Source: Salinicola halimionae (GTDB taxonomy: Bacteria > Pseudomonadota > Gammaproteobacteria > Pseudomonadales > Halomonadaceae). Taken from it: DNA of 64,000 bases. The notes beneath the pieces were generated by a model. It saw only the letters and a program-made list of their open reading frames with translations. It did not search any database and had not been told where the DNA came from. The DNA is taken from NCBI RefSeq assembly GCF_003206065.1, contig NZ_PZJQ01000004.1, forward strand, positions 1,275,965 to 1,339,964, written 5' to 3'. Numbering within the stretch: position 1 is the first letter of the stretch; the number at the start of each line of letters is the position of its first letter. The translations under genes and the position numbers were made by a program. Shown piece by piece: positions 8,842 to 61,818 of this stretch.

Positions 8842-9192
8842 GAATGGCTTCACTGGCTAGAGGCGACTCACAAGCATCATGAGTCGATGGTTGAGAGTTC
8901 GCGGGGGATCGAAGATGGCGGCGATTGTACGCGCTGAACCGGCAGAGTTGTAGCCGCCGCCATGGCTGCGGCCTTTCGAAAGACGAGGCCAGGACACAAC
9001 ACCAGAGACGTCTAAACGATATCGCGAGCCCGCCCCTGTGCGACAAACGGACGCCTCTTTCTTTCGACCTGTCCACGTTCCTCGCGGCTTGCGTTACCAT
9101 GACCGCGATAACCGCGGCGATGTCGAGTCAGCCGCGCTGCTCTCGTTCGCGTTTCGAACGTCTCGCCAACCCGACTCGATACCGGAGAGACC
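8842..9192. other. Divergent prfC/regB intergenic region
   Basis: About 350 bp between two divergent genes, expected to hold both promoters. Short reading frames here are not supported by ribosome sites or recognisable products. I see no clear operator or terminator. Confidence 0.5.
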
Positions 9193-40612: not shown

Positions 40613-40689
40613 TGGTCGGAGCGACAGGATTCGAACCTGCGACCTCTGCAACCCCATTGCAGCGCGCTACCAAGCTGCGCCACGCTCCG
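40613..40689 (-). tRNA. tRNA-Pro(GGG)
   Basis: 77-nt cloverleaf: acceptor stem CGGAGCG/CGCTCCG, D arm GCGC-AGCTTGGTA-GCGC, anticodon arm CTGCA-ATGGGGT-TGCAG with anticodon GGG, T arm GCAGG-TTCGAAT-CCTGT, and an encoded CCA end. The first base C pairing with G72 is usual for bacterial tRNA-Pro. A terminator follows 8 nt later. Confidence 0.96.
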
Positions 40690-40935: not shown

Positions 40936-41304
40936 ATGGGATTGATCATCGGGATGAGCATCCTGCTCGGCTGTCAGTTTCTAGGCGAGATCATTAGCCG
41001 CGCTCTTGCGCTTCCCGTTCCCGGCCCCGTGCTCGGCATGTTGATTCTCCTGATCGGCTTGATCACACGGGGCAGTGTTCCAGGCAGTCTGCGGACGATG
41101 GGAGAAGGTCTGCTCAAATATCTAACGTTGTTGTTCGTACCCGCCGGCGTCGGTCTTATCCAGCATTTCGGTCTGATCGGTCGGGAAATCGGGATCCTGA
41201 TCATTACGCTGATCGTATCCACGTCGGTGACCCTTCTGGTGACCAGCCAGATCCTGCAGCGCGTTGCGAAAAAAGCGACTTCCTCCAGGGAAGGTGATGC
41301 ATGA
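40936..41304 (+). CDS. CidA/LrgA-family membrane protein
   Basis: 122 residues, four membrane helices. It has the family signature ALPVPGPVLGMLILLIGL and LKYLTLLFVPAGVGLIQHF. These proteins resemble phage holins. In gammaproteobacteria they act with LrgB in murein-hydrolase control or in export of small organic acids. The ATG at 40936 (AGGTGG site) is preferred to upstream codons. It overlaps the next gene in an ATGA arrangement. Confidence 0.9.
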   Translation: MGLIIGMSILLGCQFLGEIISRALALPVPGPVLGMLILLIGLITRGSVPGSLRTMGEGLLKYLTLLFVPAGVGLIQHFGLIGREIGILIITLIVSTSVTLLVTSQILQRVAKKATSSREGDA

Positions 41305-42029
41305 ACGATTTCGGTCTCGCAAAGGTGTGGGTCTATCTGGCCGCCAGTCCGCTGCTGCATCTATTCGCCACCCTGCTGGCATTCATCGTTGCCAGCAGGA
41401 TCAACCGTTGGGCAGGCAGAACTCCACTTCTTCATCCGGTCATCGTGGCCATTGCTCTGTTGATTGGTTTTCTGTTCCTGACCGACACAGATTACACCAC
41501 CTATTTCGAGGGCGCCCAGTTCCTGCATTTTCTACTGGGTCCGGCCACGGTTGCGCTGGCCATACCGCTCTACGATCACCGCGAACGCGTGCGCCGCATG
41601 CTGTGGCCCATCGTCGTCGGTACGCTTACCGGTGTCGTCACAGCGGTGATCTCCGCCGTCGGCATCGCCATGATTTTGGGCGCCGGCCCCGAAACGGTGC
41701 TATCGCTGGCTCCCAAATCGGTAACATCCCCGATTGCGATGGGGGTTGCCGAGAAAATCGGCGGAATTCCTTCACTGACGGCCGGCCTGGTGCTGCTGAC
41801 CGGCGTCGTGGGGTGCATCGTCGGGCCCTGGATTTTCCGACTTACCCGAATCACGGACCCCACCATTCAGGGCTACTCCATGGGGCTGGCGGCTCATGGC
41901 TTCGGCACCGCCTACTGTTTTGCCTCCATCGGTAGCGTGGCCGGCGCCTTCTCGGGGCTGGCAATGGGGACGTCCGGTTTGGTCACGGCTTTCATACTGC
42001 CGCCCATTGTGCATTTATTCGGGCTCTAG
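41301..42029 (+). CDS. LrgB/CidB-family membrane protein
   Basis: 242 residues, about seven helices. It has the family motifs YFEGAQFLHFLLGPATVALAIP, LSLAPKSVTSPIAMGVAEKIGG and YSMGLAAHGFGTA. It is the partner of the upstream LrgA-like protein; the 4-nt ATGA overlap shows translational coupling. Whether the pair affects autolysis or transports pyruvate or glycolate cannot be told. Confidence 0.92.
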   Translation: MNDFGLAKVWVYLAASPLLHLFATLLAFIVASRINRWAGRTPLLHPVIVAIALLIGFLFLTDTDYTTYFEGAQFLHFLLGPATVALAIPLYDHRERVRRMLWPIVVGTLTGVVTAVISAVGIAMILGAGPETVLSLAPKSVTSPIAMGVAEKIGGIPSLTAGLVLLTGVVGCIVGPWIFRLTRITDPTIQGYSMGLAAHGFGTAYCFASIGSVAGAFSGLAMGTSGLVTAFILPPIVHLFGL

Positions 42030-42100
42030 CAAACGCCAGCAGGAACTCAAAAGGGCGTGGGCACTCAACTGAACGTGCGAATCGTTTCAAGGATCGAGGT

Positions 42101-42466
42101 ATGAAAGTAAAAATTGTGGCGCCCGCTCTAGCGGCCGTGTTGATAATACTCGCGGCCGGCACACTCATGCCCGGTGAGTACGAGGCTTCGATCCAGCGCT
42201 GGCTGGGCGCGAGCAATACGATTCAACCGGCATCACACTTCGTGCTCTTCGTCATGATAAGCGGTTTACTCTCCTGGCTGATGCGTCATCGCGCGCCCTG
42301 GCTTCCATTGGCCCTTTGCTTGATCCCCGCCCTGGGTACCGAGTGGCTGCAACACTTTTCGCCCCACCGGCATCCCAGACTCAGCGATGTCGGCATCGAT
42401 ATGCTTGGCGCCAGCCTGGGCTGGCTCCTCGTGCAACTGACTCGACTTGCGACATCGGATTCCTGA
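42101..42466 (+). CDS. VanZ-like membrane protein
   Basis: 121 residues, three to four helices: a hydrophobic N-terminus, HFVLFVMISGLLSWLM, LALCLIPALGTEWLQHF, and SDVGIDMLGASLGWLL with the VanZ-type DxxxNxxG-like end (here DMLGASLG). Despite the name, no glycopeptide resistance is implied. It lies between lrgAB and the tailspike-like gene and may belong functionally to the polysaccharide region. Ribosome site GAGGT. Confidence 0.75.
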   Translation: MKVKIVAPALAAVLIILAAGTLMPGEYEASIQRWLGASNTIQPASHFVLFVMISGLLSWLMRHRAPWLPLALCLIPALGTEWLQHFSPHRHPRLSDVGIDMLGASLGWLLVQLTRLATSDS

Positions 42467-42497
42467 TTCGTGTCGTTAACCTTTGTCGATTCACGCT

Positions 42498-42549
42498 TGC
42501 AACCCGTCTCCACAGCCCGTCTTTACAACCTGCCCTTACAAAATGACAA
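42498..42549. repeat. 13-bp degenerate tandem array (4 units)
   Basis: TGCAACCCGTCTC, CACAGCCCGTCTT, TACAACCTGCCCT, TACAAAATGACAA in unbroken 13-bp phase, between the VanZ-like and tailspike-like genes. A TGGATGATG direct repeat follows at 42597 and 42612. Confidence 0.5.
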
Positions 42550-42624
42550 CGACTCGCTAAGGTGATCATGAACCACTCTGGGGATAATTAGACCATTGGA
42601 TGATGGCCTAATGGATGATGTCTC

Positions 42625-45000
42625 ATGGAAGTCAAAACGTTCTTTACACAAGACACCGATGGACAAACCATCTCTAACGCTCGAGTCACCGTGCGCCATC
42701 AAGGAAATGCCGAGCCGGCACCGGATCTACAGGATGTCTCGGGCGCCCCGCTTTCCAACCCTTTTACATCGAACTCAGAGGGTCTCATCCAGTTGGCGGC
42801 ACCCAATGGCCACTACGCCATCGATGTCGAAAAAGGCGACTCCCGCCAAAGCCTCACTGCTCAATTTTTCGATCAAGACGCCGTGGCGTCGGCCTCTGGC
42901 ACACAAACCCTTGCGGCAGCTCTGAATCAGCGCCTGATCGTTGTCGACTCCGTCGACATGCTGAAAAGCTGGCCAGCGGATCACGTTACTGATGGTGTTC
43001 GGCTGATCTGCAAGCGCTTCCATCATGACCTCCCCGACGAAATCAACGTCGAACTACAGCGACGCACTCATCTCGACGACACAAGCCGGGCGGGCCAAAT
43101 GGCGTGGCTCGCCATCGACGGGAATCGCCCCGACTTTCATCACTTCACGCTGTGGAGCGACGATGGCGCCGCCTACGTTCACGAAAGTCACGACGTCCAT
43201 CTTCTGAAAGTTGGATTCCGTGCCGACTATAACGCCAAGGCTACCTCTGGCTCGCGAGGCACGGACGAGTCGGCATGGCTGCAGGAGACGATCGACAAGA
43301 CGCCCTTTCGCAACAAGTACTTGCCTGACCTACCGGATGAGCGAGGGCTGTACGTTGGCGAGGGCCAGATTCGGCTGTGCTCGGGCACACGGATTATCGG
43401 AGACGGACCAGCAACCAACAGCCGCATCGTCAGCGATTACGTCGGTGCGTCTTTCCGTGACGGCCTGTTCTGGATGCGAGAGCCACACGTGATCGATGCC
43501 TGGGCCAAAGGGCGACCCGCCGGTGACATCGACCAAGCCTTCAGCCACGACATTCGAATCAGCGGCCTGACGTTCGAGGCAACCGATTTCGCCAGCGCTG
43601 CCGTTGCCCTGGTCTGCGTGCGTGGAGTCGACTACCACGAGAATCACCACATCCGCTGCGGCGGCATCAAGTTTTTCCACGAGCTGGAATTGAATGATCG
43701 CTACTCGCTGGGCCATGAGGATGATCCAGCGACCGACAATGCCGTCATGGCGGGCTTTCATGCGCAGACACCGGACGACCTCAACCAGCAAATCCGTATC
43801 AGCCATCTCTCCGGCGGTACCGACCGGTACAGCTACTCTCCGGGAGATGGCAAGGCTGCCTGTGCCGTGCGTCTGAATTTTGTGCGTGATTTCAGCATCG
43901 CGCATATCCACATGGACTATTGCAATATTTCTGGCTGGGGAGGCTCGGCGAGACCGGGCAAGGGAGGAGAACTACGCTGGATGCGACGGCTTCGTGACGG
44001 CTACATTACCGATGTCCACTGCAACCGCTCTAATGGCGCGATTTATTTCAACAACGCTCACAACATCAAGATTTATGGCTGCAGTGCCAAGGATGTCAGC
44101 GATACTGCCTTCGACTTCGAAGGTTGTACCTACTGCCTGTTCGATGGGATTTACTCGGTGAATGCCGGCAACTTCGGCATATCGATCTTCTATGCCACTC
44201 GTGGCAACGTGATCAAGAATTTCTACGCACTACAGACATCCGAAGCCGCAGAGTTGCGCAGCCGCTACGCAACCGAGAGGTTCAAGCCGGGATTGGGGAA
44301 AACCCTGTTTCGTCGTCTGGCGGGATTCGAGGATCCGGATTTCGAGCAGGACGTCGTACTCGACACCGGGTCTTTCGTCTATGAGGGGGAAGGTTTCGGG
44401 CTGGTAGCGGTGGACTCGTGGGTGAACGTGACCTATCGCAACGTACAGCACCATAACGTGCTGATGGACCTACGCGCCCACAGCAACGCCCGGGAACAGC
44501 AGCTGCACGACAATCGCTTTACCTTTACCAAGAAGGCGACAGACGGTGACGTGTTTGTCGCGATAGGGCCCAACAGCACCCAATATGGCTGCTGGAAAGG
44601 CGGGACGATCGAATCTACGGTCGAACAACCATCGGGAGTGATCCCCCTTTTGGTTCAGGCTCGCGCCTATGCGGGAACAACCATCGTGGACATCATGGAA
44701 AGCCGCATCGACGTACCAGGGGTAGAGACCTCGATCGCGATCAGTGACGCTCGTAGCACCGGGCGTCGTCCTGCTCACGCCTTCCGTCTCAATGGCAATC
44801 TCATCACCGCGGGTAGCCGAATAGAGAATCTAAACCTCAACCAGCGCGCCGGCGGCGATGCTTTACAGTTCGAGTCGCTAAACAATCGAGATTTGACTTT
44901 CAAACCCGTGGACGTCGAAACGACGAAAGGCGACAGTGCGGAACGCTATGCCGCACTCCGCATTGGCCTCAAGGCGACGCGACCACGTGAGCAGGATTGA
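42625..45000 (+). CDS. Tailspike-like right-handed beta-helix protein
   Basis: 791 residues without signal peptide. Residues 1-85 resemble the particle-binding modules of phage tailspikes: VTVRHQGNAEPA, GAPLSNPFTSNSEGLIQLAA, PNGHYAIDV. A long beta-helix region follows (GLYVGEGQIRLCSGTRIIGDG, IRISGLTFEA, NNAHNIKIYGCSAKDVSDTAFDFEGC), typical of pectate-lyase-fold proteins that cleave polysaccharide. It stands alone, with no other phage genes, and converges on the end of the EPS operon. A role as a depolymerase or a surface polysaccharide-binding protein is inferred from fold and place. Catalytic residues cannot be assigned by eye. The ribosome site is weak. Confidence 0.75.
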   Translation: MEVKTFFTQDTDGQTISNARVTVRHQGNAEPAPDLQDVSGAPLSNPFTSNSEGLIQLAAPNGHYAIDVEKGDSRQSLTAQFFDQDAVASASGTQTLAAALNQRLIVVDSVDMLKSWPADHVTDGVRLICKRFHHDLPDEINVELQRRTHLDDTSRAGQMAWLAIDGNRPDFHHFTLWSDDGAAYVHESHDVHLLKVGFRADYNAKATSGSRGTDESAWLQETIDKTPFRNKYLPDLPDERGLYVGEGQIRLCSGTRIIGDGPATNSRIVSDYVGASFRDGLFWMREPHVIDAWAKGRPAGDIDQAFSHDIRISGLTFEATDFASAAVALVCVRGVDYHENHHIRCGGIKFFHELELNDRYSLGHEDDPATDNAVMAGFHAQTPDDLNQQIRISHLSGGTDRYSYSPGDGKAACAVRLNFVRDFSIAHIHMDYCNISGWGGSARPGKGGELRWMRRLRDGYITDVHCNRSNGAIYFNNAHNIKIYGCSAKDVSDTAFDFEGCTYCLFDGIYSVNAGNFGISIFYATRGNVIKNFYALQTSEAAELRSRYATERFKPGLGKTLFRRLAGFEDPDFEQDVVLDTGSFVYEGEGFGLVAVDSWVNVTYRNVQHHNVLMDLRAHSNAREQQLHDNRFTFTKKATDGDVFVAIGPNSTQYGCWKGGTIESTVEQPSGVIPLLVQARAYAGTTIVDIMESRIDVPGVETSIAISDARSTGRRPAHAFRLNGNLITAGSRIENLNLNQRAGGDALQFESLNNRDLTFKPVDVETTKGDSAERYAALRIGLKATRPREQD

Positions 45001-45020
45001 AAGGTGCCTCGCTCGCCGTT

Positions 45021-45203
45021 TTAGCGGAGCACGATCACGCTATCAGCAGACACGACCCGGGCGATGCGCTGCTCTTGCCCGGGGACGACTCGCTCTGGTG
45101 TCCGAGTCATGGGGCCAGCAATTGCCCCGCTCACCCATGGCGGCAAAAGCGTCACCGTCAAACAGCCAAGCCCGGCGGTCAAGAATTGGCGTCTGGTTGG
45201 CAC
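45021..45203 (-). CDS. 60-residue protein with a Tat signal peptide
   Basis: The GTG start at 45203 is preceded by GGGAGG with ideal 8-nt spacing. The product opens MPTRRQFLTAGLGCL with a clear twin-arginine motif (RRQFL). A hydrophobic core and a likely AIA cleavage site follow, leaving about 31 mature residues (ending VSADSVIVLR). It lies 94 nt after the SGNH acyltransferase gene in the same direction. It could be a small exported protein or the surviving 5' end of a larger Tat substrate. No family recognised. Confidence 0.55.
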   Translation of the reverse strand: MPTRRQFLTAGLGCLTVTLLPPWVSGAIAGPMTRTPERVVPGQEQRIARVVSADSVIVLR

Positions 45204-45297
45204 CAAGGCATCCTCCCTCAGTCGATAAACATGTCGAACGAATCGAGTTTGAGGAGAACGCGCACTCGCCACATTCTCGAGTGCGCGACACCCTCTC

Positions 45298-47304
45298 TCA
45301 GTCTCGCAGCGCAAGCCCCGCGCTCGAGCGCTGTTCGAATACCAGGTCCGCCTGGTGCAACGTTTTCTCGATTCGATCCGCCGTCAGATAGGAAAACGTG
45401 TTGGTGATGTGATGGTCATCGCGGTAGATCAATACATTGCCGTCCAGCGGTGAGCAGCGCTCATCATCACAGAAGAGATCACTCAGATCGGCGAAATAGA
45501 CGTTGGGCAAATGCACGTCATCGGTTGGCGAGTGCGCTTTCAGCACGGACTGCCGCGGAATCGAACAGGCAGAAGCAGGATCATCGTGAAGATCGACGCA
45601 TTCAGGAACGTCAAAGCCGTACCATGGATTATCGCGCAGCGCCAAAACGTTGATGCTGCTTTTTGCCAGCCTGTTCCAGACTTGCCGATAACCCGAAGGG
45701 ACACGCTCATCTTCGCCTTGCCCCCGAGTGCTGGTAGTGAAGACCAGATCCGGATTGATTTCGATCAGCCTGTCAGTCGCCTCCCGATTCCAGGTCAGGC
45801 AGGAAGGATTCACCTGGTAGCGAGCATGCGGGTCCATGGACAACATGCAGGCGCCTTTGGTCAGCGAGACCAATCGAAAATTTTCCCGCTCGGCAATGAC
45901 CTTCAACGCGGCCAGCCAATGCTGCGCATGCGATCCCCCTGCCAATACCACCGTGTGGTCTGATTGAGGGTTGCCATACTCGCATTCGATCAACTTGGAC
46001 TCGAGATAGCTCTGGTGGCAGCCATCATAGGAAGATTCCGGCAGATCCTGACTTGCGATCAGCGTCGACGGGGACAGATCCTGACTCTCGACCGAGCCAC
46101 CTTCTGAAAAAGTCGTCGATGGCTCGTGCATGAACTCTTGAAGGTCGGCCTTGGCGTCGGCACTCCTGCCTTGGTAATCCTGATACCAGGCAAACAGCGA
46201 CCCTAGCGGCAACAACATCAACACGGCACAAGAGGCGTAGGCGTAAATTCGGCGACGAGACAACAGTGCCGAACGACGCACCGGCGTTTCAAATCCCCAG
46301 GTAGTCAGAAATGCCAATATCCCCGACGTCAGGATTATCGTCAGCCCCACCACGAAACTGACCTCGAACTCTCCGGTCACGTAGCGATAGAACGACAGTA
46401 ATGGCCAGTGCCATAGATAAAAAGAGAACGAGATGTTGCCAAACCAGACGACGAAACGGTTATTCAACACCCTCATGTCGCCCTGATTCCGCGCGGCAGC
46501 GATGATGCCGGCCGCAGCCAGCACCGGCACCAATGCCACGATGCCGGGAAACAGCGCTGACACGTTGAGAAACAACGCGAATGTCAGTAACACGATCAAC
46601 GACACCCAGCCCAGCAGCTTGGCCGTCAGCATCGATAACGTGAACCGGGAGACAAACAAAGCCAGCAAACCGCCCAACGAGAACTCCCAGGCACGGGCGA
46701 ACGTATCGAAATAGGCCCAGGGCTGATTCTTCTCGGTGATATAGATGCTGTATGCAAGCGAAGCGACAGTGATGATCATCAACAGCAAGGCGCAGAAACG
46801 ATGATCTCCCCGGTCACGACGAGAATCGAGCTTCAAACCCACCCATAGAATGAGCGGGAAGAAGAAATAGAAATGAATCTGTACCGCCAGCGCCCACAAT
46901 TGCTGGAACGGCGAAGGCGGAGACCCCTGCTGCAGATAGTCCGTGGCCGTCATTGCCAGAGACCAGTTCTCCATGAACGCGATCGAGGCCAACGCATGCT
47001 TGATCTGGTTGCGCCACATTGAATCTGGCATTAACCACATCGATATTAGAATGGTCGAAAAGATCACCAACGCCGCGCTCGGGACCACACGACGCAGCGT
47101 CTTGCCGTAGTAATCCAGCACATCACCTAACGTTAATGACTCCCGTCGCGTCAATGACCCCACGATAAAAAAAGCGGCAACAACGAAGAAGACATCGACG
47201 CCCCCGGACACGCGCTGAATCCAGATGTGATAGATGGAGACCATCAACGCCGCAACAGCACGCAACCCCTGTATTTCGTAAAGATACCCACGATCCTTGT
47301 CCAA
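45298..47304 (-). CDS. Acyltransferase-3/SGNH polysaccharide O-acyltransferase (OafA-type)
   Basis: N-terminal acyltransferase-3 domain with about ten to eleven helices (GLRAVAALMVSIYHIW has the catalytic R-X10-H pattern; WALAVQIHFYFFFPL). A C-terminal periplasmic SGNH domain has block I VVLAGGSHAQHW and block V DDHHIT. Such proteins O-acetylate polysaccharide repeat units. It has 668 residues from a TTG at 47304, chosen because AAGGAG lies 7 nt upstream. The track to 47367 also opens with TTG but has no site. It is near the 3' end of the EPS unit. Confidence 0.88.
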   Translation of the reverse strand: MDKDRGYLYEIQGLRAVAALMVSIYHIWIQRVSGGVDVFFVVAAFFIVGSLTRRESLTLGDVLDYYGKTLRRVVPSAALVIFSTILISMWLMPDSMWRNQIKHALASIAFMENWSLAMTATDYLQQGSPPSPFQQLWALAVQIHFYFFFPLILWVGLKLDSRRDRGDHRFCALLLMIITVASLAYSIYITEKNQPWAYFDTFARAWEFSLGGLLALFVSRFTLSMLTAKLLGWVSLIVLLTFALFLNVSALFPGIVALVPVLAAAGIIAAARNQGDMRVLNNRFVVWFGNISFSFYLWHWPLLSFYRYVTGEFEVSFVVGLTIILTSGILAFLTTWGFETPVRRSALLSRRRIYAYASCAVLMLLPLGSLFAWYQDYQGRSADAKADLQEFMHEPSTTFSEGGSVESQDLSPSTLIASQDLPESSYDGCHQSYLESKLIECEYGNPQSDHTVVLAGGSHAQHWLAALKVIAERENFRLVSLTKGACMLSMDPHARYQVNPSCLTWNREATDRLIEINPDLVFTTSTRGQGEDERVPSGYRQVWNRLAKSSINVLALRDNPWYGFDVPECVDLHDDPASACSIPRQSVLKAHSPTDDVHLPNVYFADLSDLFCDDERCSPLDGNVLIYRDDHHITNTFSYLTADRIEKTLHQADLVFEQRSSAGLALRD

Positions 47305-47379
47305 CGACTGGCTCCTTTCCAATGACTTGGGACAACACACCTCTTCCGTTGTGACCGTTAATTTCAAGCTGAATCAGGA

Positions 47380-50098: not shown

Positions 50099-51031
50099 TT
50101 ATTTCTTGAATACGCCAACCAGTTTTTCGTTGTCGAAGACCAGCAGAGCATTGATTTTCTTGGATTCCATTAGTACTAGTGCATCCTCGACCCGGGCCGT
50201 GGGGGAAATCCTGGATGCCTCCGGCGTCATGAAGTCGTAGGCTTTCTTGGAGAACACATACTCGCCGTATTTTTCGATGCCGCGACGTACGTCACCGTCA
50301 GTGATGACGCCCCAACTGCCATTGTGCTGAACGACCGCCATCCCCAGTTGCGCACGCGACATCGCCTGAATTACGTCGAGCACTTCCGCCTCAGCCTTGA
50401 CGACCGGTAGGTTCTCGCTGCGCATTTCGTGTTCGACGCGGCTTAGCAAGCGACGCCCCAAGGAGCCTCCAGGATGAAAGCGGGCAAAATTTTCGGGTTG
50501 GAAGTCTCGCGCTTTCATTAACGTCACCGCCAGCGCATCACCCATTGCCAGCGTGGCGGTAGTCGAAGAGGTCGGTGCCAGCTGCAGCGGGCAAGCCTCC
50601 TCGATGACACCGATATCCAAGTGACTGTGGGAAGCCCGGGCCAACGTGGAGCCGCGATTCCCGGTCATCCCGACAAGATAATTGCCGTTGTCCTTGAGAT
50701 AGGGGATCAGCTTGATCACCTCTTCCGTTTCGCCGGAATTGGAAATCGCGAGGAACACATCATGCGGCGTGACCATGCCGAGATCGCCGTGATAAGCCTC
50801 TCCCGGATGCATGAAGAAACTCGGGGTCCCGGTGCTGGCCAGCGTCGCCGCGATCTTGCGACCGACGATGCCGGATTTACCCATCCCGCAGATGATGACC
50901 CGTCCCGGTGTTTCCAGGATCGCGTCAATCGCGGTGCTCAAATCGTTATCCAGCTTGCGAGACACTTCCAGCAGCGATTCGGCTTCCTTGACGAAGACCT
51001 GCCTGGCCGTTTCCAGATATTCCAGATTCAT
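50099..51031 (-). CDS. kdsD: Arabinose-5-phosphate isomerase (KdsD/KpsF type)
   Basis: First step of Kdo synthesis: ribulose 5-phosphate to arabinose 5-phosphate. N-terminal SIS domain (GRVIICGMGKSGIVGRKIAATL, GEAYHGDLGM, ISNSGETEEV, LAPTSSTTATLAMGDALAV) and two C-terminal CBS domains. It has 310 residues. The ATG at 51031 (MNLEYLETA) is preceded by GGGAGG with 8-nt spacing. Its place in an EPS locus with kdsC and kdsA suggests a dedicated (KpsF-like) copy rather than the housekeeping LPS one. Confidence 0.93.
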   Translation of the reverse strand: MNLEYLETARQVFVKEAESLLEVSRKLDNDLSTAIDAILETPGRVIICGMGKSGIVGRKIAATLASTGTPSFFMHPGEAYHGDLGMVTPHDVFLAISNSGETEEVIKLIPYLKDNGNYLVGMTGNRGSTLARASHSHLDIGVIEEACPLQLAPTSSTTATLAMGDALAVTLMKARDFQPENFARFHPGGSLGRRLLSRVEHEMRSENLPVVKAEAEVLDVIQAMSRAQLGMAVVQHNGSWGVITDGDVRRGIEKYGEYVFSKKAYDFMTPEASRISPTARVEDALVLMESKKINALLVFDNEKLVGVFKK

Positions 51032-51171
51032 GATGATTCCCTCCCTGAGTCTGAATGAGATCAATGGGTTCGAGACCGATGGCCCTCAGATCGAAAGAGA
51101 GCATTCGAGGTCGAGATAGGACATTCCAGATGGAGCATTACCGAGGGTGCCGTGGCCAGGATCAGACCGTG

Positions 51172-51241
51172 CCATTGCGCAAAGGCCATTCCGTGAAGGC
51201 CACTCCAGGAAGACCATTTTGGAAAGACATTGCGGTAAGAC
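51172..51241. repeat. 14-bp degenerate tandem array, block 1 (5 units)
   Basis: CCATTGCGCAAAGG, CCATTCCGTGAAGG, CCACTCCAGGAAGA, CCATTTTGGAAAGA, then a shortened CATTGCGGTAAGAC. Adjacent full units share 9-11 of 14 positions. Confidence 0.6.
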
Positions 51242-51334
51242 GCAGGCGCAAGATCTCACGCATGACGTCAGAACACGCGCAAAGGCACGTCACCGTCAGA
51301 CGACCGAGGCTCCGGAAGAACCCGGATCGATCGC

Positions 51335-51375
51335 AGCTCAGAGATTGAAGTTCAGAAATTGAAGCTCAGAAAAGG
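51335..51375. repeat. 14-bp degenerate tandem array, block 2 (3 units)
   Basis: AGCTCAGAGATTGA, AGTTCAGAAATTGA, AGCTCAGAAAAGG. The first two share 12 of 14 positions. Confidence 0.65.
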
Positions 51376-51398
51376 CCACCACCCGGGCGGGTGATGGC
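51371..51398 (-). terminator. Terminator after kdsC
   Basis: GCCACCACCCG / CGGGTGATGGC (one non-Watson-Crick pair) closing a 2-nt gap, with TTTT following on the minus strand. It would separate kdsD and the downstream genes from wza-kdsC unless antitermination (ops/RfaH) overrides it. Confidence 0.6.
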
Positions 51399-51421
51399 GA
51401 ATGCACTAGGTCTTACAACTA

Positions 51422-51463
51422 GCACCTAGGGCTCAGCATCCGAGGCTTAACGCCTGAGGCGAA
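51422..51463. repeat. 14-bp degenerate tandem array, block 3 (3 units)
   Basis: GCACCTAGGGCTCA, GCATCCGAGGCTTA, ACGCCTGAGGCGAA, running up to the kdsC stop codon. Adjacent units share 8-9 of 14 positions, so this block is weaker. Confidence 0.45.
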
Positions 51464-51467
51464 AGCC

Positions 51468-52042
51468 TTACTGCACGACGCGACGCAGGGCGTCGGCATC
51501 CCCCAGCATGTGCGCATACATCTCGGCGAGATCGAGACCGCGAGCCGCTAGCAGATCTTCGGCGATTTCCCGCGCGACACCACGTCCGCCCAGCGCTTGC
51601 GTGACATGATCAGCCACCTCGATGACCAATGGATGCGCGTCCGCCGGCGCATAAGCAACGGCCACTTCCTGCATGACCGGAATATCGATGATGTCATCCC
51701 CCACGAAACCGATGCGTTCAGGAGCAATCCCCTGCTCTTCGGCGATCTGGCGAATGGCTTCGAGCTTATGGCTGAATCCGATCTTGATCACGTCCATGCC
51801 CAGCTGGGTCGCTCGAGTAATCAGCGGCTGGCTCGATTTCGCCGACAGCACCCCACTCTTGATGCCGTGCTGGCGCAGCAGGCCGATCGCCACACCGTCA
51901 CGCACATTGAACGGTTTCAGCGACTCGCCTTCTGGCCCGATCAACAACGTGCCATCGGTCAGCACGCCATCGACATCGAACAGCATCAATTCGATCTGGT
52001 CACGACGATCCGGGCGTGCCATCAATCGATCTCGGCTTGTCA

Positions 52043-52043
<1 letters not shown>
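51468..52043 (-). CDS. kdsC: Kdo-8-phosphate phosphatase
   Basis: Haloacid-dehalogenase-type phosphatase that converts Kdo 8-phosphate to Kdo. The nucleophile motif is MLFDVDGVLTDGTL, motif II SGVLSAKSSQ and motif IV GFVGDDIIDIPVM. PADAHPLVIEVADHVT and GGRGVAREIAEDLL are typical of KdsC. It has 191 residues. Its ATG overlaps the kdsA stop (TAATG), so it is translationally coupled. Confidence 0.93.
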
Positions 52044-54105
<2,062 letters not shown>

Positions 54106-55264: not shown

Positions 55265-56425
55265 TCACTCGCTGAAAGAGAGCATTACCAACAGGGAATA
55301 GATAATGAAGGTCGGAACGAGCACCAGTGCCGCATCGGAAAACGTGGCGACTCCGTACATCACACAGCCAATACACGCCGCCCGACTGACCGGGCGCGTT
55401 ACGTCGAACAAGCTTCGCGCGATGACGATATTGGAGAAGAACATGAGAAAGGGAACGAGCCCGATCAGCCCCATGAACTCGGCAATCGACACATAAGGAA
55501 TTTCATAGGACCAATACAGCGGAGTACTGGAAATGAAGCCGGCGTCAAAGAAATAATCGAGATAAGCGGCGCGCCCGCCAAGGTTGCTATCGAACAGGAA
55601 AGTCATATCCTTTCCCATCATGCCCAGCAACCCCACGATACCCGGCACGACAAGGCACAGAGCAAAGCAAATCAGGATCAACTTTTTGACCGAAATCGCC
55701 TTGTTGAATACCAAATACTCGAACACGCAGTAGATCAGCAGCAACGCCCAAGCCGTACGCGATAACGTCAGCATGATCGACAGCATCAGCGCCACAACCC
55801 AGAGACGGTTTTTCTCGATTACCGTATAGATCGGAACCAGCATGATCATGCATACCGCATAGATATTGCCGTTGTTATAAGTGGAAAATAACTTAAAGAT
55901 CCCACCCCGGTCGTTCATCCTGGATTCCAGCGTCTTCTCGGCGCCAAAGGTTGTGGTGAGTGCCGGTATCGAAAAATACTGACCTGTGGCGATCTTCAAA
56001 ACAAAAAGGAAAAGACCAAAAGCCACCGCGAAACGAATACAGTTTCGCAAACAGCCCAACAGATATTGGATACTGTCAGCAGGTAGCTGCTTTGACCATA
56101 CGTAGAAAAAAATCGGCACGACAACCAAAGCCATGACATAACCGAAATACATGCCGACACTGTCGATTCCATTGAGCGTGGTAACTGCAATGAATAGCGC
56201 CCAGAAAGGCGCCATCATCCAGATGTAGATGGAGTAGCGATCTTGCCGTGCGAGCTGGCCCGTTCCCAGCATCCCTTTGATAAAGAGAATGGGAAAAGTC
56301 GCCACGATCAGCAGATAGATGGTGTTCAGCGGAATGCCACCCAAAGCGACACCCGATTTCGGCAGTGCAACGGCAAAAATGACAGGTGCCGCCACCAACA
56401 TTCGTTTGGTATTGATTACCAGCAT
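55265..56425 (-). CDS. wzy: O-antigen/EPS polymerase (Wzy-like)
   Basis: 386 residues, about eleven membrane helices with one large periplasmic loop (VLKIATGQYFSIPALTTTFG ... RGGIFKLFSTYNNGN) and LSRTAWALLLIY, as in O-antigen ligase/polymerase proteins. Sequence conservation in this family is low; identity rests on topology and on lying between wzx and the glycosyltransferase. It would polymerise repeat units at the outer face of the inner membrane. Confidence 0.78.
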   Translation of the reverse strand: MLVINTKRMLVAAPVIFAVALPKSGVALGGIPLNTIYLLIVATFPILFIKGMLGTGQLARQDRYSIYIWMMAPFWALFIAVTTLNGIDSVGMYFGYVMALVVVPIFFYVWSKQLPADSIQYLLGCLRNCIRFAVAFGLFLFVLKIATGQYFSIPALTTTFGAEKTLESRMNDRGGIFKLFSTYNNGNIYAVCMIMLVPIYTVIEKNRLWVVALMLSIMLTLSRTAWALLLIYCVFEYLVFNKAISVKKLILICFALCLVVPGIVGLLGMMGKDMTFLFDSNLGGRAAYLDYFFDAGFISSTPLYWSYEIPYVSIAEFMGLIGLVPFLMFFSNIVIARSLFDVTRPVSRAACIGCVMYGVATFSDAALVLVPTFIIYSLLVMLSFSE

Positions 56426-56488: not shown

Positions 56489-57883
56489 CTATCTAGGCCC
56501 AGAAGAATCGGTTTCGTCAGCCTTGGAAGAACGGTTTAAACCCAAACGAACCGGAAGCATGACGATTCCCATCCGTCGCCATACGAACATTGCGGCCACG
56601 AGGTTTTGCAACATCAAGACCATGGCCAGCGAAATCGCTGCCCCGATGGCCCCTAGCATCGGTATGAGCACCAGGAATGCAAGCAATCCGAGTGCACTAC
56701 AGATCAGGGAAATGTTACGCATGATCTTCTCGCGCCCAGTCATGGTCAGTAGAAAGCCAACGGAACCGAACATGACATTCACCAGGTGTCCGATCACAAT
56801 GATGCGAAGCAGATTGGCTGCATGGCGAAACTCTTCGCCGAACCAACTCAATACCCACTCAGGAAATACAAAGCAGATGATAGCGAGCGGCATCGCCATG
56901 GTAGCCGCCACCAGTGAGCTCTGGCGCGCAAGGCGACTCAGCTCGGCGTGCTTGTTTTGATGAAATAATCTGGCGAAGCGCGGCGGAAAAACAGCATTGA
57001 TGACCAGCAATATAAAGCTGATGATCATTCCGACCCGTTCGGCTGACTTGAAGAGCCCGAGATCGCCATGGCTGAGCAATACCCCCGCGATCAACATGGC
57101 GACCACCTGCTGAAGAAACATCGACAAATTCAGAACGATGAAACTCTGTGCCGTGGCAAAAAAGTCACTTCGTGTCGAAAGGGTCTCCAGATCGGGGCCT
57201 TGGGCTCGGCGCACCTGAGGTTTCCGATACAGCCATAGCGCGGTCTGTAATGCACCCTGAGTAAAGACGACCCATGCAGCCGCGCAGAATGCCCAACCTG
57301 CCTGGGGCAGAGATCGCGCATCTCCAATGAACACTACAACCAGGATGCAGATGGCCGCCAGCAACGAAATCGAGCCATTTTCCTGAAGACTGGCTCTCGC
57401 CGGCATATTGACGCCCTTGAGAAATCCGGCCAGCACAAAAGACAGCGTGAACGCGGGCACCGCCACCGCGATGCTGATCAGCAATGTCGATAAATCTGGA
57501 GAATCAAACGCGTTGGCGATGCCTTGGTGAAATACGCCAATCACCGCGCCAAACAGTAGACTCAGGGCTCCGGCTCTCAACAGCGCCCAGCGCAGATAGC
57601 ACAGGATGTTGGGGCTATCGTTGTCTTGGCTGATGTAGCGCATCAGAGAGCCGTTGAGCCCGTAACATGCAATGATACCTGCACCGAAAATCACACTCTG
57701 CGCGAGAGCGAAAACCCCGACACCCTGAGCTCCGTACAGACGGCCCAGCACGACACCAAGGAAAATCGTCCCCAGTGCCGCGACTCCACGTGCGGCGAAG
57801 GTACGGCATAGGGAGGCGAACAACTCTCCGCGGAAATGCGAGGCAAGTCGGCGTGGCAAGGCTGCCATCGACGTTTGATTCAT
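56489..57883 (-). CDS. wzx: Repeat-unit flippase (Wzx, MATE-like/PST family)
   Basis: 464 residues, twelve to fourteen helices. N-terminal RTFAARGVAALGTIFLGVVLGRLYGAQGVGVFALAQS has the typical start of polysaccharide transporters, and SAERVGMIISFILLVINAVFPPRFARLF lies in the second half. It moves the undecaprenyl-linked unit across the inner membrane. It follows wzc by 78 nt and precedes wzy by 63 nt. Confidence 0.88.
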   Translation of the reverse strand: MNQTSMAALPRRLASHFRGELFASLCRTFAARGVAALGTIFLGVVLGRLYGAQGVGVFALAQSVIFGAGIIACYGLNGSLMRYISQDNDSPNILCYLRWALLRAGALSLLFGAVIGVFHQGIANAFDSPDLSTLLISIAVAVPAFTLSFVLAGFLKGVNMPARASLQENGSISLLAAICILVVVFIGDARSLPQAGWAFCAAAWVVFTQGALQTALWLYRKPQVRRAQGPDLETLSTRSDFFATAQSFIVLNLSMFLQQVVAMLIAGVLLSHGDLGLFKSAERVGMIISFILLVINAVFPPRFARLFHQNKHAELSRLARQSSLVAATMAMPLAIICFVFPEWVLSWFGEEFRHAANLLRIIVIGHLVNVMFGSVGFLLTMTGREKIMRNISLICSALGLLAFLVLIPMLGAIGAAISLAMVLMLQNLVAAMFVWRRMGIVMLPVRLGLNRSSKADETDSSGPR

Positions 57884-57961: not shown

Positions 57962-60181
57962 TCACTTGTAGCTGTAATGGTAGTAACCGTACCCGTATTC
58001 AGTGGCGGCTTTGCGCTCCACTGCATTGAGGATTGCCCCACGAGGCTCCACACCCGCCGTTTTCAAGCGATTGATCGCCAATTCCAGCTCCTTGGGCGGA
58101 TTGAGCTGGAATCGCGCCAGTATCAGAGTCGTGCCAACCTGGTCGCCAATGATCGCAGCATCAGTAACCGCGAGGACCGGCGGCGAGTCCACGATCACCA
58201 GATCAAAGCGCTCGCTGACAGCGGCCAAAAACTCGCTGAAGCGCGAGCCCATCAGCAATTCGGAGGGGTTGGGTGGCGCCATGCCACGCGATACGTACTG
58301 CAGGTTGTCGACGCCATCGACATCGCGAATGACCTGATCCAGCGGTAATTTGCCGGACAACACATCGCTGAGCCCGTTTTCCGAAGGCGCACCGAAGACG
58401 CTATGAACCTGGCCCTTGCGCATGTCGGCATCGACGACCAGTACGCGTTGACCGGCCTGGGCACACACTGCTGCCAGATTGATGCTGACGAAGCTCTTGC
58501 CGACGCCGGGGCTCGGTCCGGTGATCATCAGCCGATTATCCTTGGCCTCGAGCATGGCGAAATGCAGGCTGGTGCGTAGACCCCGTAATGCCTCGACTGA
58601 CATATCCGCCGGATTGCGGGACGCCAGCAGGCCTGCGAGCACACTACGGCTCTGATCCTTATCCGAGCGTTTGACGCGGCGGTTCAATTTGCTCTGCTCA
58701 TCGGATAGCGGAATCGTGGCGTAGACCGGCAGCCCCAATTCCTCGATCTGCTCCTGTGTCTCGATACCCCGGTTGAACAGTGCACGCAGGAAGACCCCGG
58801 CGACGCCAACGACCAAACCCAGGATGATGGCAACGGCAATCAGTAGCGGCTTGTTGGGCGCCACCGGCGCGGACAACACTTCAGCCGTGTCGAGAACGCG
58901 CACATTACCCACCGTGCTCGCCTCGGAAATCTTGGTTTCCTGAACCTTGTTCAGCAGTTGGACGTAAATCTCGTTGGTGACCTGGACATCACGCTGCAAC
59001 CGCAGGATTTCCTGTTGCGTCTCCGGCAAGCCCTTGACCTGCTTGTCGAGATTGTCGCGCTCACGCTGAAGCTGCGCCTTCTTCTCGAGTAGCGCCTGAT
59101 AAGTAGGATGACTCTTGGTAAAGCGCTGGGAGATTTCAGCTTCGTTCATCTCCAGCTCGTTCAGCTGAGATTCCAGATTGACGATACGCTCGAGAACGGA
59201 TTTCGTTTCCAGCGACAGGTCGACACTATCCTTGGACTCACGATAGGCGTTGAGCTTCTCTTCGGACTGATTGAGCTGAGCGCGAATCTCCGGCACCTGG
59301 GTATTGAGGAAGTCCAGGCTCTTGCGTGCCTCTTCCGACTGACGCTGAACGTTCTGCGAGTAATAGATATCAGCAATGGTGTTGAGCGCCTTTTCGGTGG
59401 CGTCAGGATCCGGCCCGGTGAGACTCCATCGCAGAATGCCCGTTTCGCTGCCTGCTTCGCCAACGTTAAAGCGACCTTTCAGACCGTTGATCGCCGCCAG
59501 TCGGGAAATATGCTGGATCGTGAACTCGGCACCGCTGGCCGCCTGGATCGACGTCACACGCATCGAGACATTGCCATCGAGGAAAGTGCTCAACTGCCCG
59601 ACCTCGCCGGTTCCCAACTCGCTGCCATCGCCATCGAACAGTTTATATGTGTAGCTATCCTGCACCTTGAGCGTAAACGTCTTGCCGAGGTAGTCATCAG
59701 AGACAGGCATCTCACTGACCGCGACGCTCTCGTCGCTGAACGCATATCCCCAGCCATCGGCAAAGCCGGGCCTACCGACACTCTGTCGCTGAAGGAAGGT
59801 ACCGATGACGGGCATCGTAACCGGCGCCACGTTGACATCAAGGTTGAGCAGACTGACCGCCTGACCCAGCACCATCCGCGAGCGAATGATCTCGATCTCG
59901 GAGAGCGTTGGTGGCTTCTGTCCAAGCAGACTGGAAACCTCTTGAAGCGGATTGTTGCCCTGGCCAGAATTCTCGATTTGCACCAGAGCATCGGCCTGAT
60001 AGATAGGTGTCGCCAGACTGCCGTATACGAAGCCGATCAGCGCGAAACCGAAAACACTCGCCAGCACCCATTTCTTGTGGTCCAGCAAGATCCCCAGCAA
60101 CCGACGAATGTCGATCTCTTCGTGGTTGCGGGCTGCCGATGTCGTCGGTGTATTGCTTGTGTTCATGTGGGCGTTTTGCAT
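57962..60181 (-). CDS. wzc: Polysaccharide co-polymerase/BY-kinase (Wzc)
   Basis: Controls chain length and export together with Wza; autophosphorylating tyrosine kinase. It has a Wzz domain with two membrane helices (KKWVLASVFGFALIGFVYG; LLIAVAIILGLVVGVAGVFL) and a coiled-coil periplasmic part. The C-terminal kinase has Walker A GPSPGVGKSFVSINLA (about 551-566), Walker A' VLVVDADMRKG and Walker B VIVDSPPVL. The tail EYGYGYYHYSYK is a tyrosine cluster, the autophosphorylation site. It has 739 residues. The start at 60181 is favoured over the ATG five codons on, but neither ribosome site is ideal. Confidence 0.94.
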   Translation of the reverse strand: MQNAHMNTSNTPTTSAARNHEEIDIRRLLGILLDHKKWVLASVFGFALIGFVYGSLATPIYQADALVQIENSGQGNNPLQEVSSLLGQKPPTLSEIEIIRSRMVLGQAVSLLNLDVNVAPVTMPVIGTFLQRQSVGRPGFADGWGYAFSDESVAVSEMPVSDDYLGKTFTLKVQDSYTYKLFDGDGSELGTGEVGQLSTFLDGNVSMRVTSIQAASGAEFTIQHISRLAAINGLKGRFNVGEAGSETGILRWSLTGPDPDATEKALNTIADIYYSQNVQRQSEEARKSLDFLNTQVPEIRAQLNQSEEKLNAYRESKDSVDLSLETKSVLERIVNLESQLNELEMNEAEISQRFTKSHPTYQALLEKKAQLQRERDNLDKQVKGLPETQQEILRLQRDVQVTNEIYVQLLNKVQETKISEASTVGNVRVLDTAEVLSAPVAPNKPLLIAVAIILGLVVGVAGVFLRALFNRGIETQEQIEELGLPVYATIPLSDEQSKLNRRVKRSDKDQSRSVLAGLLASRNPADMSVEALRGLRTSLHFAMLEAKDNRLMITGPSPGVGKSFVSINLAAVCAQAGQRVLVVDADMRKGQVHSVFGAPSENGLSDVLSGKLPLDQVIRDVDGVDNLQYVSRGMAPPNPSELLMGSRFSEFLAAVSERFDLVIVDSPPVLAVTDAAIIGDQVGTTLILARFQLNPPKELELAINRLKTAGVEPRGAILNAVERKAATEYGYGYYHYSYK

Positions 60182-60199
60182 CCTTTCAGCACGTCCTTA

Positions 60200-60640
60200 T
60201 TAACGACCGGGCATCTTGTCGACCCAGGCATCCGCAGCTTTCACCAGCAGTTGATGAACGTGTTCAAACGCGCTCTGGCTTTTGCGGTAGGGGTCGGGCA
60301 CTTCGTTTTCTTCGATCCATCGTGTGAACAGCATCGTCTTGCCGGTCGCGGCGGGATAGCGCTCGGCCACGGACCGACGTTGGCCATCCGACATCACCAG
60401 GATCAAGTCGGCCGACTGCAGCATCGCTTCGTCGACCTGACGTGCCACATGCGAAGAGAGATCCAGTCCATCGGCGTCGGCCAGCCGCCGCGCGGTCGGC
60501 TCGGCACCCTCCCCGACCAATGCCCCCAACCCGGCGGAAGACACCTGTTTGTCCGGAAAGCGCTGCGTGAGCAGCGCTGCCGCCACCGGGCTGCGGCAGA
60601 TATTGCCGGTACACAACACCAGTATTCGATCGAACATCAT
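60200..60640 (-). CDS. wzb: Low-molecular-weight protein-tyrosine phosphatase (Wzb)
   Basis: Dephosphorylates the Wzc tyrosine tail, which cycling is needed for polymerisation. The CX5R loop is LCTGNICRSP, and the general-acid aspartate is in EVPDPYRKS. It has 146 residues. Its ATG overlaps the wza stop (TGATG). The wza-wzb-wzc order is the classical one. Confidence 0.95.
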   Translation of the reverse strand: MMFDRILVLCTGNICRSPVAAALLTQRFPDKQVSSAGLGALVGEGAEPTARRLADADGLDLSSHVARQVDEAMLQSADLILVMSDGQRRSVAERYPAATGKTMLFTRWIEENEVPDPYRKSQSAFEHVHQLLVKAADAWVDKMPGR

Positions 60641-61818
60641 CAGTTGCCGTCGCGCAGTTCATCGAAGTCACGCGTAGCACGCGTCACCTGGTAGACCGAG
60701 CTTATCGTTGGCGTCAGCTGATTGACGACACGGTTCCAGCGGCTGAGCGGTGCGGCGGTGACGTACACAATGTCGGTCGGCTGGAGCATGAACTGCGCCC
60801 CGAGGACCAGTGACGTGGCGTTGCGCGCATCCAGTTGGTAAACAGTGGCAAGCTTGCCGGTATCCGGCGCAGCCTGACGGATGACGAAAATGCCTTTGGC
60901 ATCGGCCTGAGCTTCGTCCATGCCCCCGGCCTCCGACAGGGCGTCCGTCAGTGACAACCGCGAATTGCCCATCGGCAGCGTGACGGGATCCATCACCTCA
61001 CCCATGACGAAGACCTTCTGATTGCCGATATCGGGGATATGCAGAACATCGCCGTTTTCGAGCAGCTGATTCTGACGCATGTCCCCGCTCTGCAGCATCG
61101 AATAGACATCGATGTGAGTTTCAGTGTCTCCGCGGGAAAGCACGACATCATGCCAATTGGCATCCCCATTGAGACCGCCGACGAGGTTGATGGCGTCAAG
61201 GATCGTCATCGGTACATTTGTAATCGGCATCACCCCCGGGCGTTCTACCTGCCCGGTGACGTAGGCTTTTTGAGAATTGAAACCAACGACTTTGACATCG
61301 ACCTGCGGCTCCGTGACATAGGTCGCCAGGCGGCTCTGCAACTGGGATCGAACGTCTTCGATCGTTCGACTCGCAACCTGGATACGACCGACATAAGGAT
61401 AGAAAATAGTGCCGTCGCTATAGACGGTATTGCCCGTATCCTCGGTAGGACGCTCACTACCTGCAGGAATAGTCAGTTCGGGGTGGTCGTAGACGATGAT
61501 CGACAGCACATCGCCGATACCGATGTGATACTCGTAAGGATCGCTGGATGCTTGGCGCTGCGGGTTGGCAACCGCTCGGGCCAGCGCCGTTTCTCCACTG
61601 CCATCAACGCCAGCATCCCCAGCCTGGCCAGAAGCCGCCTGCTGTGTCCGCACCAGACCCAGCGTGATCGGCTCTACATCGACCAGATCATCGACAGGCG
61701 CAGAGTCAGTGTCGTAATCGATATGCCCACCGGGTGCGAAGGCACAGCCCGACACCGCAACGGCTATAGACAACGACAGAATTGGAAAACACCACCAGCC
61801 TCTGCGTAATTTCATCAT
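60640..61818 (-). CDS. wza: Outer-membrane polysaccharide export lipoprotein (Wza)
   Basis: Forms the octameric export channel. Signal peptide with lipobox VSGC (C25), the Poly_export domain (YHIGIGDVLSIIVYDHPEL, GTIFYPYVGRIQV) and two SLBB domains (QKAYVTGQVERPGVMPI; QKVFVMGEVMDPVTLPMGN). Near the end lies WNRVVNQLTPTI, as in the C-terminal amphipathic outer-membrane helix. It has 392 residues; a linker of about 50 residues after the signal is longer than in E. coli Wza (379). First gene of the EPS unit, with a leader of about 270 nt between the ops element and the start. Confidence 0.95.
   Translation of the reverse strand: MMKLRRGWWCFPILSLSIAVAVSGCAFAPGGHIDYDTDSAPVDDLVDVEPITLGLVRTQQAASGQAGDAGVDGSGETALARAVANPQRQASSDPYEYHIGIGDVLSIIVYDHPELTIPAGSERPTEDTGNTVYSDGTIFYPYVGRIQVASRTIEDVRSQLQSRLATYVTEPQVDVKVVGFNSQKAYVTGQVERPGVMPITNVPMTILDAINLVGGLNGDANWHDVVLSRGDTETHIDVYSMLQSGDMRQNQLLENGDVLHIPDIGNQKVFVMGEVMDPVTLPMGNSRLSLTDALSEAGGMDEAQADAKGIFVIRQAAPDTGKLATVYQLDARNATSLVLGAQFMLQPTDIVYVTAAPLSRWNRVVNQLTPTISSVYQVTRATRDFDELRDGN

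Follow-up and report, generated by a model that had tools for sequence, protein, structure and literature searches.

A leaderless phage-derived tailspike gene beside the exopolysaccharide locus of Salinicola halimionae, with a putative role on the producer's own polymer

Two described proteins come closest to the one analyzed here. WceF of Pantoea stewartii is a glycanase encoded in an exopolysaccharide (EPS) cluster, with a tailspike-like fold, a Tat signal peptide and a P22-like head domain (PMC7949094; PDB 6tgf). It is described in that report as a slow hydrolase clustered with its own EPS, whose N-terminal domains matter for solubility, and a role of the head domain in trimer stability is reported (PMC7949094). 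TspA, which belongs to the GTA of Rhodobacter capsulatus, is a detachable tailspike degrading the biofilm of its producer. The tspA gene is located away from the structural genes at a conserved place next to lysS, and the authors of that report suggest that soluble TspA is freed at lysis (PMC13420450).

In this study, a window of 64,000 nucleotides from Salinicola halimionae (contig NZ_PZJQ01000004.1) was analyzed, which harbors a tailspike-like gene next to an EPS operon (Table 1). The open reading frame is a genuine gene; it covers 791 codons, while 500 mononucleotide shuffles of that DNA gave open runs of up to 275 codons. On the same strand, 5' of the spike gene, lrgA/lrgB-like genes and a VanZ-like gene are located. 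The EPS operon on the 3' side encodes an AT3-SGNH acyltransferase, a second acyltransferase, a sugar transferase, KdsD/C/A, a Capsule_synth protein, a GT4 protein, a Wzy-like protein, Wzx, Wzc and Wza; kds, lrg, wzc and wza are the names which we take to apply to these genes. A reading of the DNA made without database searches (the sequence-only reading) had placed the spike gene at the end of this operon. It is found beside it instead, on the opposite strand, convergent and with a conserved upstream block of its own. The absence of other phage genes noted in that reading holds, as none was seen among the ORFs read between 36 and 64 kb, and tail and capsid protein queries, the only means by which phage genes were sought between 1 and 34 kb, matched nothing else across the window. 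Three further features of the region are mentioned here. The genes presumed to be kdsD, kdsC and kdsA (50099-52891, minus strand) lie inside the EPS operon, and the polymer may contain Kdo. The tRNA-Pro(ggg) gene is a possible old integration place. A small ORF directly after the spike gene on the opposite strand (45021-45314) has a twin-arginine-like leader, belongs to no Pfam family and had no match above the score used in the congener loci.

Table 1. Coordinates of the spike gene, its parts and neighboring features (positions in the window unless another contig is given).
Feature	Position	Strand	Remark
tRNA-Pro(ggg) gene between transporter and lrgA, about 1.9 kb from spike	40613-40689	-	
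lrgB-like flank marking the insertion place (name presumed)	41301..42029	+	
VanZ-like gene between lrgB and spike	42101..42466	+	at this place in G012 and G007 only, among congeners searched
Conserved block 5' of spike, promoter- or operator-like	42538..42588	+	ACAAAA and GATAAT invariant
Spike gene, 791 aa	42625..45000	+	full-length matches in 12 other Salinicola genomes, two frameshift-split
N-module, residues 1-84, homologous to baseplate-proximal phage spike ends	42625..42876	+	pLDDT of residues 1-80 about 79-90
Predicted right-handed beta-helix, residues about 169-675	43129..44649	+	structure model, low confidence outside core
Most conserved stretch, residues 436-510, candidate active region	43930..44154	+	60/75 positions invariant, 11 orthologues
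AT3-SGNH acyltransferase, end of EPS operon	45298..47367	-	divergence tracks that of spike
wzy-like polymerase candidate	55265..56425	-	Pfam Wzy_C below cut-off
wzx flippase	56489..57883	-	present in 13/13 spike-bearing, 0/5 spike-less Salinicola genomes
wzc- and wza-like export genes, EPS locus (names presumed)	57962..61818	-	
Second spike-like protein, G002	L090 (G002:C81 from 13000), 7956-9854	-	N-module profile

In the block upstream of the spike gene, the elements ACAAAA and GATAAT are invariant in 10/10 aligned Salinicola regions. A longer motif occurs once in the window (at most three mismatches) and in none of 100 shuffles, and its exact form is present in five Salinicola genomes. A sigma-70 scan of positions 42000-45600 returned no site, so that the block is not a plain consensus promoter, and since it is not repeated in the window, no operator common to the spike gene and the EPS operon was found. 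The block is a candidate site for a dedicated regulator.

The N-terminal module of phage type claimed in the sequence-only reading is present and was confirmed by tblastn homology to the starts of phage spikes. Out of 50,697 phage records, 25 matched the spike, none of them over its full length (best E 1e-10); the 20 matches listed all fall within query residues 1-134 and are mostly annotated as tail spike or tail protein. The N-module is located directly behind Tail_P2_I (gpI) in phage ZRG1, in the prophage of genome G182 and in the viral contigs L103, L105 and L111 (Pfam), and after a Phage_base_V protein in two other Pfam-tested viral contigs (L091 and L097). These positions point to the baseplate-proximal end of contractile-tail spikes, where the module may dock to gpI. 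A scan of viral contigs yielded 21 relatives with the N-module and none with the full spike alignment. Of the PHROGs families, two matched four and two members, respectively, of a set of 12 N-modules, that of the S. halimionae spike not being among them, and the whole protein had no significant PHROGs match. Searches of NCBIfam with four spikes and of plasmids with the spike were without match, and the Pfam profile PF12708 matched no protein of the own genome, the spike included.

Pfam Beta_helix matched the spike with an E value of 3.5e-5, yet with 23.9 bits, below the curated cut-off of 25.9. The structure model reached a mean pLDDT of only 49, with 79-90 in the N-module and mostly 65-86 in the helix core; the linker (residues 85-168) is poorly modelled, and the N-module resembles small beta-sandwich folds in Foldseek. 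Residues about 169-675 gave VIA-align Z scores of 20.6-24.6 among the 50 best rows, and the matches listed are mostly polysaccharide lyases, epimerases and galacturonases, besides the spikes of Sf6, P22 and CBA120. WceF is absent from these 50 rows; with Foldseek it was found at rank 2 (PDB 6tgf, E 1.2e-3). The match at rank 1, an Sf6 portal:gp7 complex (E 7e-4, TM 0.14-0.16), was judged to be probably spurious. In BFVD, 31 matches with E < 0.001 were obtained, several of them named phage spikes. The predicted beta-helix is close in fold to WceF, RbmB and the K1 and K5 lyases. The fold comparison with phage tailspikes, which the sequence-only reading had proposed, thus revealed a resemblance to such spikes and to WceF, and the polysaccharide-lyase-like beta-helix stands as a prediction, based on the sub-cut-off Pfam match, VIA-align and a low-confidence model. 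A second model, made for the spike of G035 from two sequences, had a mean pLDDT of 40, and the fold is therefore claimed for the Salinicola C-terminal type and not for the four other types described below. Judged by its N-terminal attachment domain and its predicted right-handed beta-helix, the protein is probably a phage tailspike by evolutionary origin.

The spike gene is found in 13 of 18 Salinicola genomes and is open in 11 of them. The copy in G013 (L031, 8447-10808, minus strand) is split by one frameshift, and so is that in G014, where wcaJ is also broken and wzx is found in several pieces, so that a sequence error is possible in this genome. All 13 copies are located between lrgB (or vanZ) and the EPS operon. 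Orthologues confined to full prophages, which the sequence-only reading had named as speaking against it, were thus not found, the 12 other Salinicola copies having the same place at the side of the EPS genes. In the five spike-less genomes, lrgB is directly followed by kdsC-kdsA and the EPS block is absent at that place; wzx is present in 13/13 spike-bearing genomes and has no genome-wide match in 5/5 spike-less ones (Fisher p 1e-4, kinship ignored). The spike-less genomes are found in three places of a tree of seven marker proteins (Fitch 3), in which some supports are low (0.57-0.86) and some markers are missing in some genomes. These positions suggest about three joint gains or losses of the spike and the EPS block. 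The spike is under purifying selection with a dN/dS of about 0.1 (0.08-0.19 for the whole gene in seven pairs and 0.09-0.25 for the N-module, dS being near saturation in distant pairs). For residues 436-510, dN was 0 in three and 0.006 in one of four close pairs.

With the N-module profile, 18 of 275 genomes of the family were recovered, comprising the 13 Salinicola genomes and five others, and in all 18 the module is encoded at EPS loci. In G112, G035 and G044 the spikes are located inside EPS clusters; in G235 and G267 they separate yjbFGH-like genes from other genes of that locus. Next to these five non-Salinicola spikes, no intact phage gene was seen, and tail and capsid queries at these loci matched only the N-module and remnants of gpJ and gpI. 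In a sample of the class, the N-module was found in 1 of 369 genomes, which is the own genome, and in a sample of the order in 7 of 390. Three of these seven belong to the family and three to one genus of another family (G182, G843 and G862), in which the N-module follows gpI in P2-like prophages; the remaining match (G172) is weak. Five C-terminal types can be distinguished at the EPS loci (Salinicola; G112/G035; G044; G235; G267), which do not match each other in BLASTP, while their N-modules are 39-97% identical. The second spike-like protein of G002 has a weakly similar N-module (positions 13-70, E 6.7e-5) and is encoded in another EPS-like cluster.

The spikes of G235 and G267 are directly preceded by gpJ and gpI remnants that contain several stops (gpJ in G267, E 2e-8; gpI in G235, E 8e-7), with weaker matches for gpI in G267 (E 0.03) and gpJ in G235 (E 0.001). 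The remnant regions of both genomes are homologous, with 86% identity over 844 columns from yjbH into the gpJ piece and 82% over the last 103 bases, which makes one capture before their split most likely. Seven Salinicola loci and those of G112, G035 and G044 have no gpJ or gpI remnant (E < 0.05) in their upstream 2 kb. An 18-residue match on the minus strand in G017 was taken as noise. Inheritance together with the EPS island and the two split copies out of 13, which are also counted against the explanation favored below, would fit a functionless passenger of the island left over from a prophage. This is highly improbable in view of the low dN/dS of the whole gene, the conserved upstream block, the possible sequence error behind the G014 frameshift and the spikes of G235 and G267, which are still open beside decayed tail genes.

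Two cases were found in which the spike has been replaced alongside EPS genes. The spikes of G235 and G267 are 97% identical over residues 1-90 and 44% over the next stretch, and do not match from residue 160 onwards. At the same loci, identities of 84-98% were found for yjbF, wza, wzc, wzx, three sulfate-activation-like genes and manC, wzx (84%) lying outside the replaced block, while the intervening polymer block, with five ORFs in G235 and nine in G267, is unmatched in both directions. In the sister pair G002/G008, identities are low for the beta-helix (69%), N-module (63%), wzx (69%), wzy (71%) and acyltransferase (66%), compared to 93-100% for wcaJ, kdsD, kdsC, kdsA, Capsule_synth, GT, wzc and wza. 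As the N-module of G008 has been replaced too, the whole spike gene came along there. A single transferred segment is insufficient to explain this case, since wzy and wzx are 10-13 kb away from the spike, while the acyltransferase adjoins it and its co-divergence is explicable by simple linkage.

Covariation within Salinicola was analyzed by partial Mantel tests of beta-helix distance given core distance, with 6-12 genomes with data per gene; G014 was left out of these tests and of the EPS gene comparisons, and genes with too little match were dropped per genome. The correlation was highest for the acyltransferase (0.91), wzy (0.77) and wzx (0.67), each with p 0.0001, and for the second acyltransferase (0.90, six genomes, p 0.002). 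Significant values were also obtained for wcaJ (0.44 at p 0.001) and wza (0.30 at p 0.025). It was not significant for GT (0.09), kdsD (-0.07), Capsule_synth (0.14), wzc (0.13) and ompA (0.20). With G008 removed, values of 0.50 (wzx), 0.68 (acyltransferase), 0.81 (wzy), 0.35 (wcaJ, p 0.045) and 0.69 (wza, p 0.0005) were obtained, and when near-identical genomes were removed as well, p < 0.05 was reached only for wzy (0.74), wza (0.70) and wcaJ (0.43). The covariation leans much on the one event in G008, and the firm evidence consists of the two replacement events and a weaker trend, which is not confined to repeat-unit genes. These data bear on a role as phage-defence decoy, raised in the sequence-only reading, in which host spikes would displace the phage's own during assembly, giving progeny with the wrong adsorption protein. 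A cytoplasmic, leaderless protein with a phage-type docking domain is what such a decoy needs and what is found here, and this domain is under purifying selection. A decoy need not track polymer genes, however, as the spike does; moreover, the spike matches no PADLOC family and no defence gene was noted among the neighbors read, so that this role is improbable.

The absence of a signal peptide noted before was borne out. The N-terminus of the spike has no hydrophobic stretch, only two in-frame codons precede the ATG, and a Tat signal peptide as in WceF is absent. A strongly hydrophobic leader is missing from all 16 open spikes at EPS loci, in which the hydropathy over 13 residues is at most 1.3, compared to 2.0 and 2.4 in two leader-bearing controls from the window. 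Such a lack is odd for a matrix enzyme and counts against one. As a leader was not acquired in any of the five C-terminal types, carriage by a tail or a type VI secretion system (T6SS) is kept in play. One such route would be riding on the contractile tails of resident prophages or tailocins, to which the spike would be supplied in trans. The location of the N-module behind gpI in phages and prophages fits this route, and so do the sheath-bearing tails, which are commoner in spike-bearing congeners: Phage_sheath_1, gpI and Baseplate_J are present in 10 of 13 genomes with the spike and in 1 of 5 without it (Fisher p 0.047 with kinship ignored). All three families are absent, however, from G011, G013 and the own genome (G000), so that loading onto a tailocin encoded elsewhere, as proposed in the sequence-only reading, is not supported in this strain. 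Baseplate_J had no match in G267 and G112 either. Six tail loci of congeners (one in spike-less G015) gave no significant match to the spike or its N-module, and in G006 and G007 the fibres encoded behind gpI match a different N-terminal family, Phage_tail_fib (below cut-off in G006). Taken together, tail riding is quite unlikely. In G235, two weak Baseplate_J matches were found in open frames of 1096 and 1221 codons (G235:C8:116403-119758), perhaps part of an extracellular contractile injection system.

Alternatively, the spike might be an EPS maturation enzyme like WceF, which is exported without a signal peptide, e.g. by a T6SS, and shortens chains either in the course of secretion or in the matrix. 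Within Salinicola, the T6SS protein VipA was found in 12 of the 13 genomes with the spike and in 2 of the 5 without it (Fisher p 0.044, kinship ignored), and outside the genus in 4 of the 5 other family genomes with the N-module, and the sole spike-bearing Salinicola genome without a VipA match, G013, has a split spike. On the other hand, G112 combines an open spike with no VipA match and the N-module is tied to no T6SS part, so that this export is rather unlikely.

The explanation favored here, with a probability of roughly 0.55, is that of a domesticated, leaderless phage spike acting as enzyme (or lectin) on the EPS of the adjoining locus. A self-EPS-directed, phage-derived beta-helix protein with putative depolymerase activity is the most likely description, as the spike comes, goes and changes with EPS genes. 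Support for the proposal of the sequence-only reading, that a captured tailspike is aimed at the host's polymer, is partial and indirect, and comes from the fixed place in 13/18 genomes, the joint presence with the EPS genes, the purifying selection, the gpJ/gpI fossils and the co-replacement. On the other side stand the reliance of the covariation on G008, where the N-module was exchanged as well, the wzx gene left in place in G235/G267, the covariation of wcaJ and wza, and the sheath-bearing tails of spike-bearing congeners. An ancestor would have captured a spike with a contractile-tail docking domain beside its EPS locus; the tail genes would then have been lost and the spike retained by host selection as an EPS enzyme or lectin, being replaced or diverging whenever certain polymer genes do. 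Expressed from its own promoter, the presumably trimeric protein would accumulate in the cytoplasm, and partial lysis of the population, which is the simplest exit for a protein without leader, would free it into the matrix, where the producer's EPS might be trimmed or cross-linked.

A broader interpretation can be offered as a tentative possibility only. The EPS loci of the family might contain a slot, in which a constant tail-type docking domain is combined with an exchangeable polymer-specific domain and never with a leader, coupling the breakdown of the kin matrix to cell death. The constant domain would be kept because the spike is made to be freed when some cells lyse, or to be carried on tails. 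If so, these bacteria would have taken a dispersal trigger matched to the EPS type from phages.

Compared to the described systems, WceF and the Salinicola spike have in common a bacterial gene at an EPS synthesis locus that is conserved in relatives, a beta-helix, predicted for the spike, and an N-terminal domain of phage type. The two differ in the Tat leader of WceF, the spike being leaderless, and probably also in the N-terminal part, with a P22-like head domain and a neck domain in WceF and another N-module in the spike; PDB chains of the WceF kind have no sequence match to it. TspA is similar in that its gene is apart from the structural genes at a conserved place, but according to its description it is tied to GTA regulation rather than to an EPS locus and has another N-terminal beta-sandwich (PMC13420450). 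The Vibrio polysaccharide lyase RbmB (PDB 9ozd) is also a beta-helix protein acting on the matrix polysaccharide of its producer. It aligned to the spike model with a VIA Z of 24.4 and an rmsd of 3.4 over 298 residues at 11% identity. RbmB is presumably secreted and without a phage N-module. The spikes of MyoSmar-kind Serratia phages, of the E. coli phages ep3/ECO1230-10 and of Pseudomonas phage ZRG1 share the homologous N-module, but are encoded within phage genomes and their C-terminal parts have no match to the Salinicola spike. A literature search on WcaM of the colanic acid cluster as a further comparison yielded nothing, and in the open-licence literature no report of EPS-locus spikes in Salinicola or its relatives was found. 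EPS-linked enzymes with tailspike fold (WceF) and a spike encoded outside the structural cluster (TspA) are already known. As judged from that literature, a leaderless EPS-locus spike with a tail-type N-module recurring in one family is new, and so are the fossil capture and the replacement of the spike together with EPS genes. How and why a leaderless matrix protein gets outside is the question raised by these spikes. Their replacement together with polymer genes makes the prediction of substrates testable, and they are polymer-matched candidate depolymerases for the EPS of halophiles. The crystallized case of WceF is thereby extended to several spikes at EPS loci which lack a leader and bear a docking domain of phage type.
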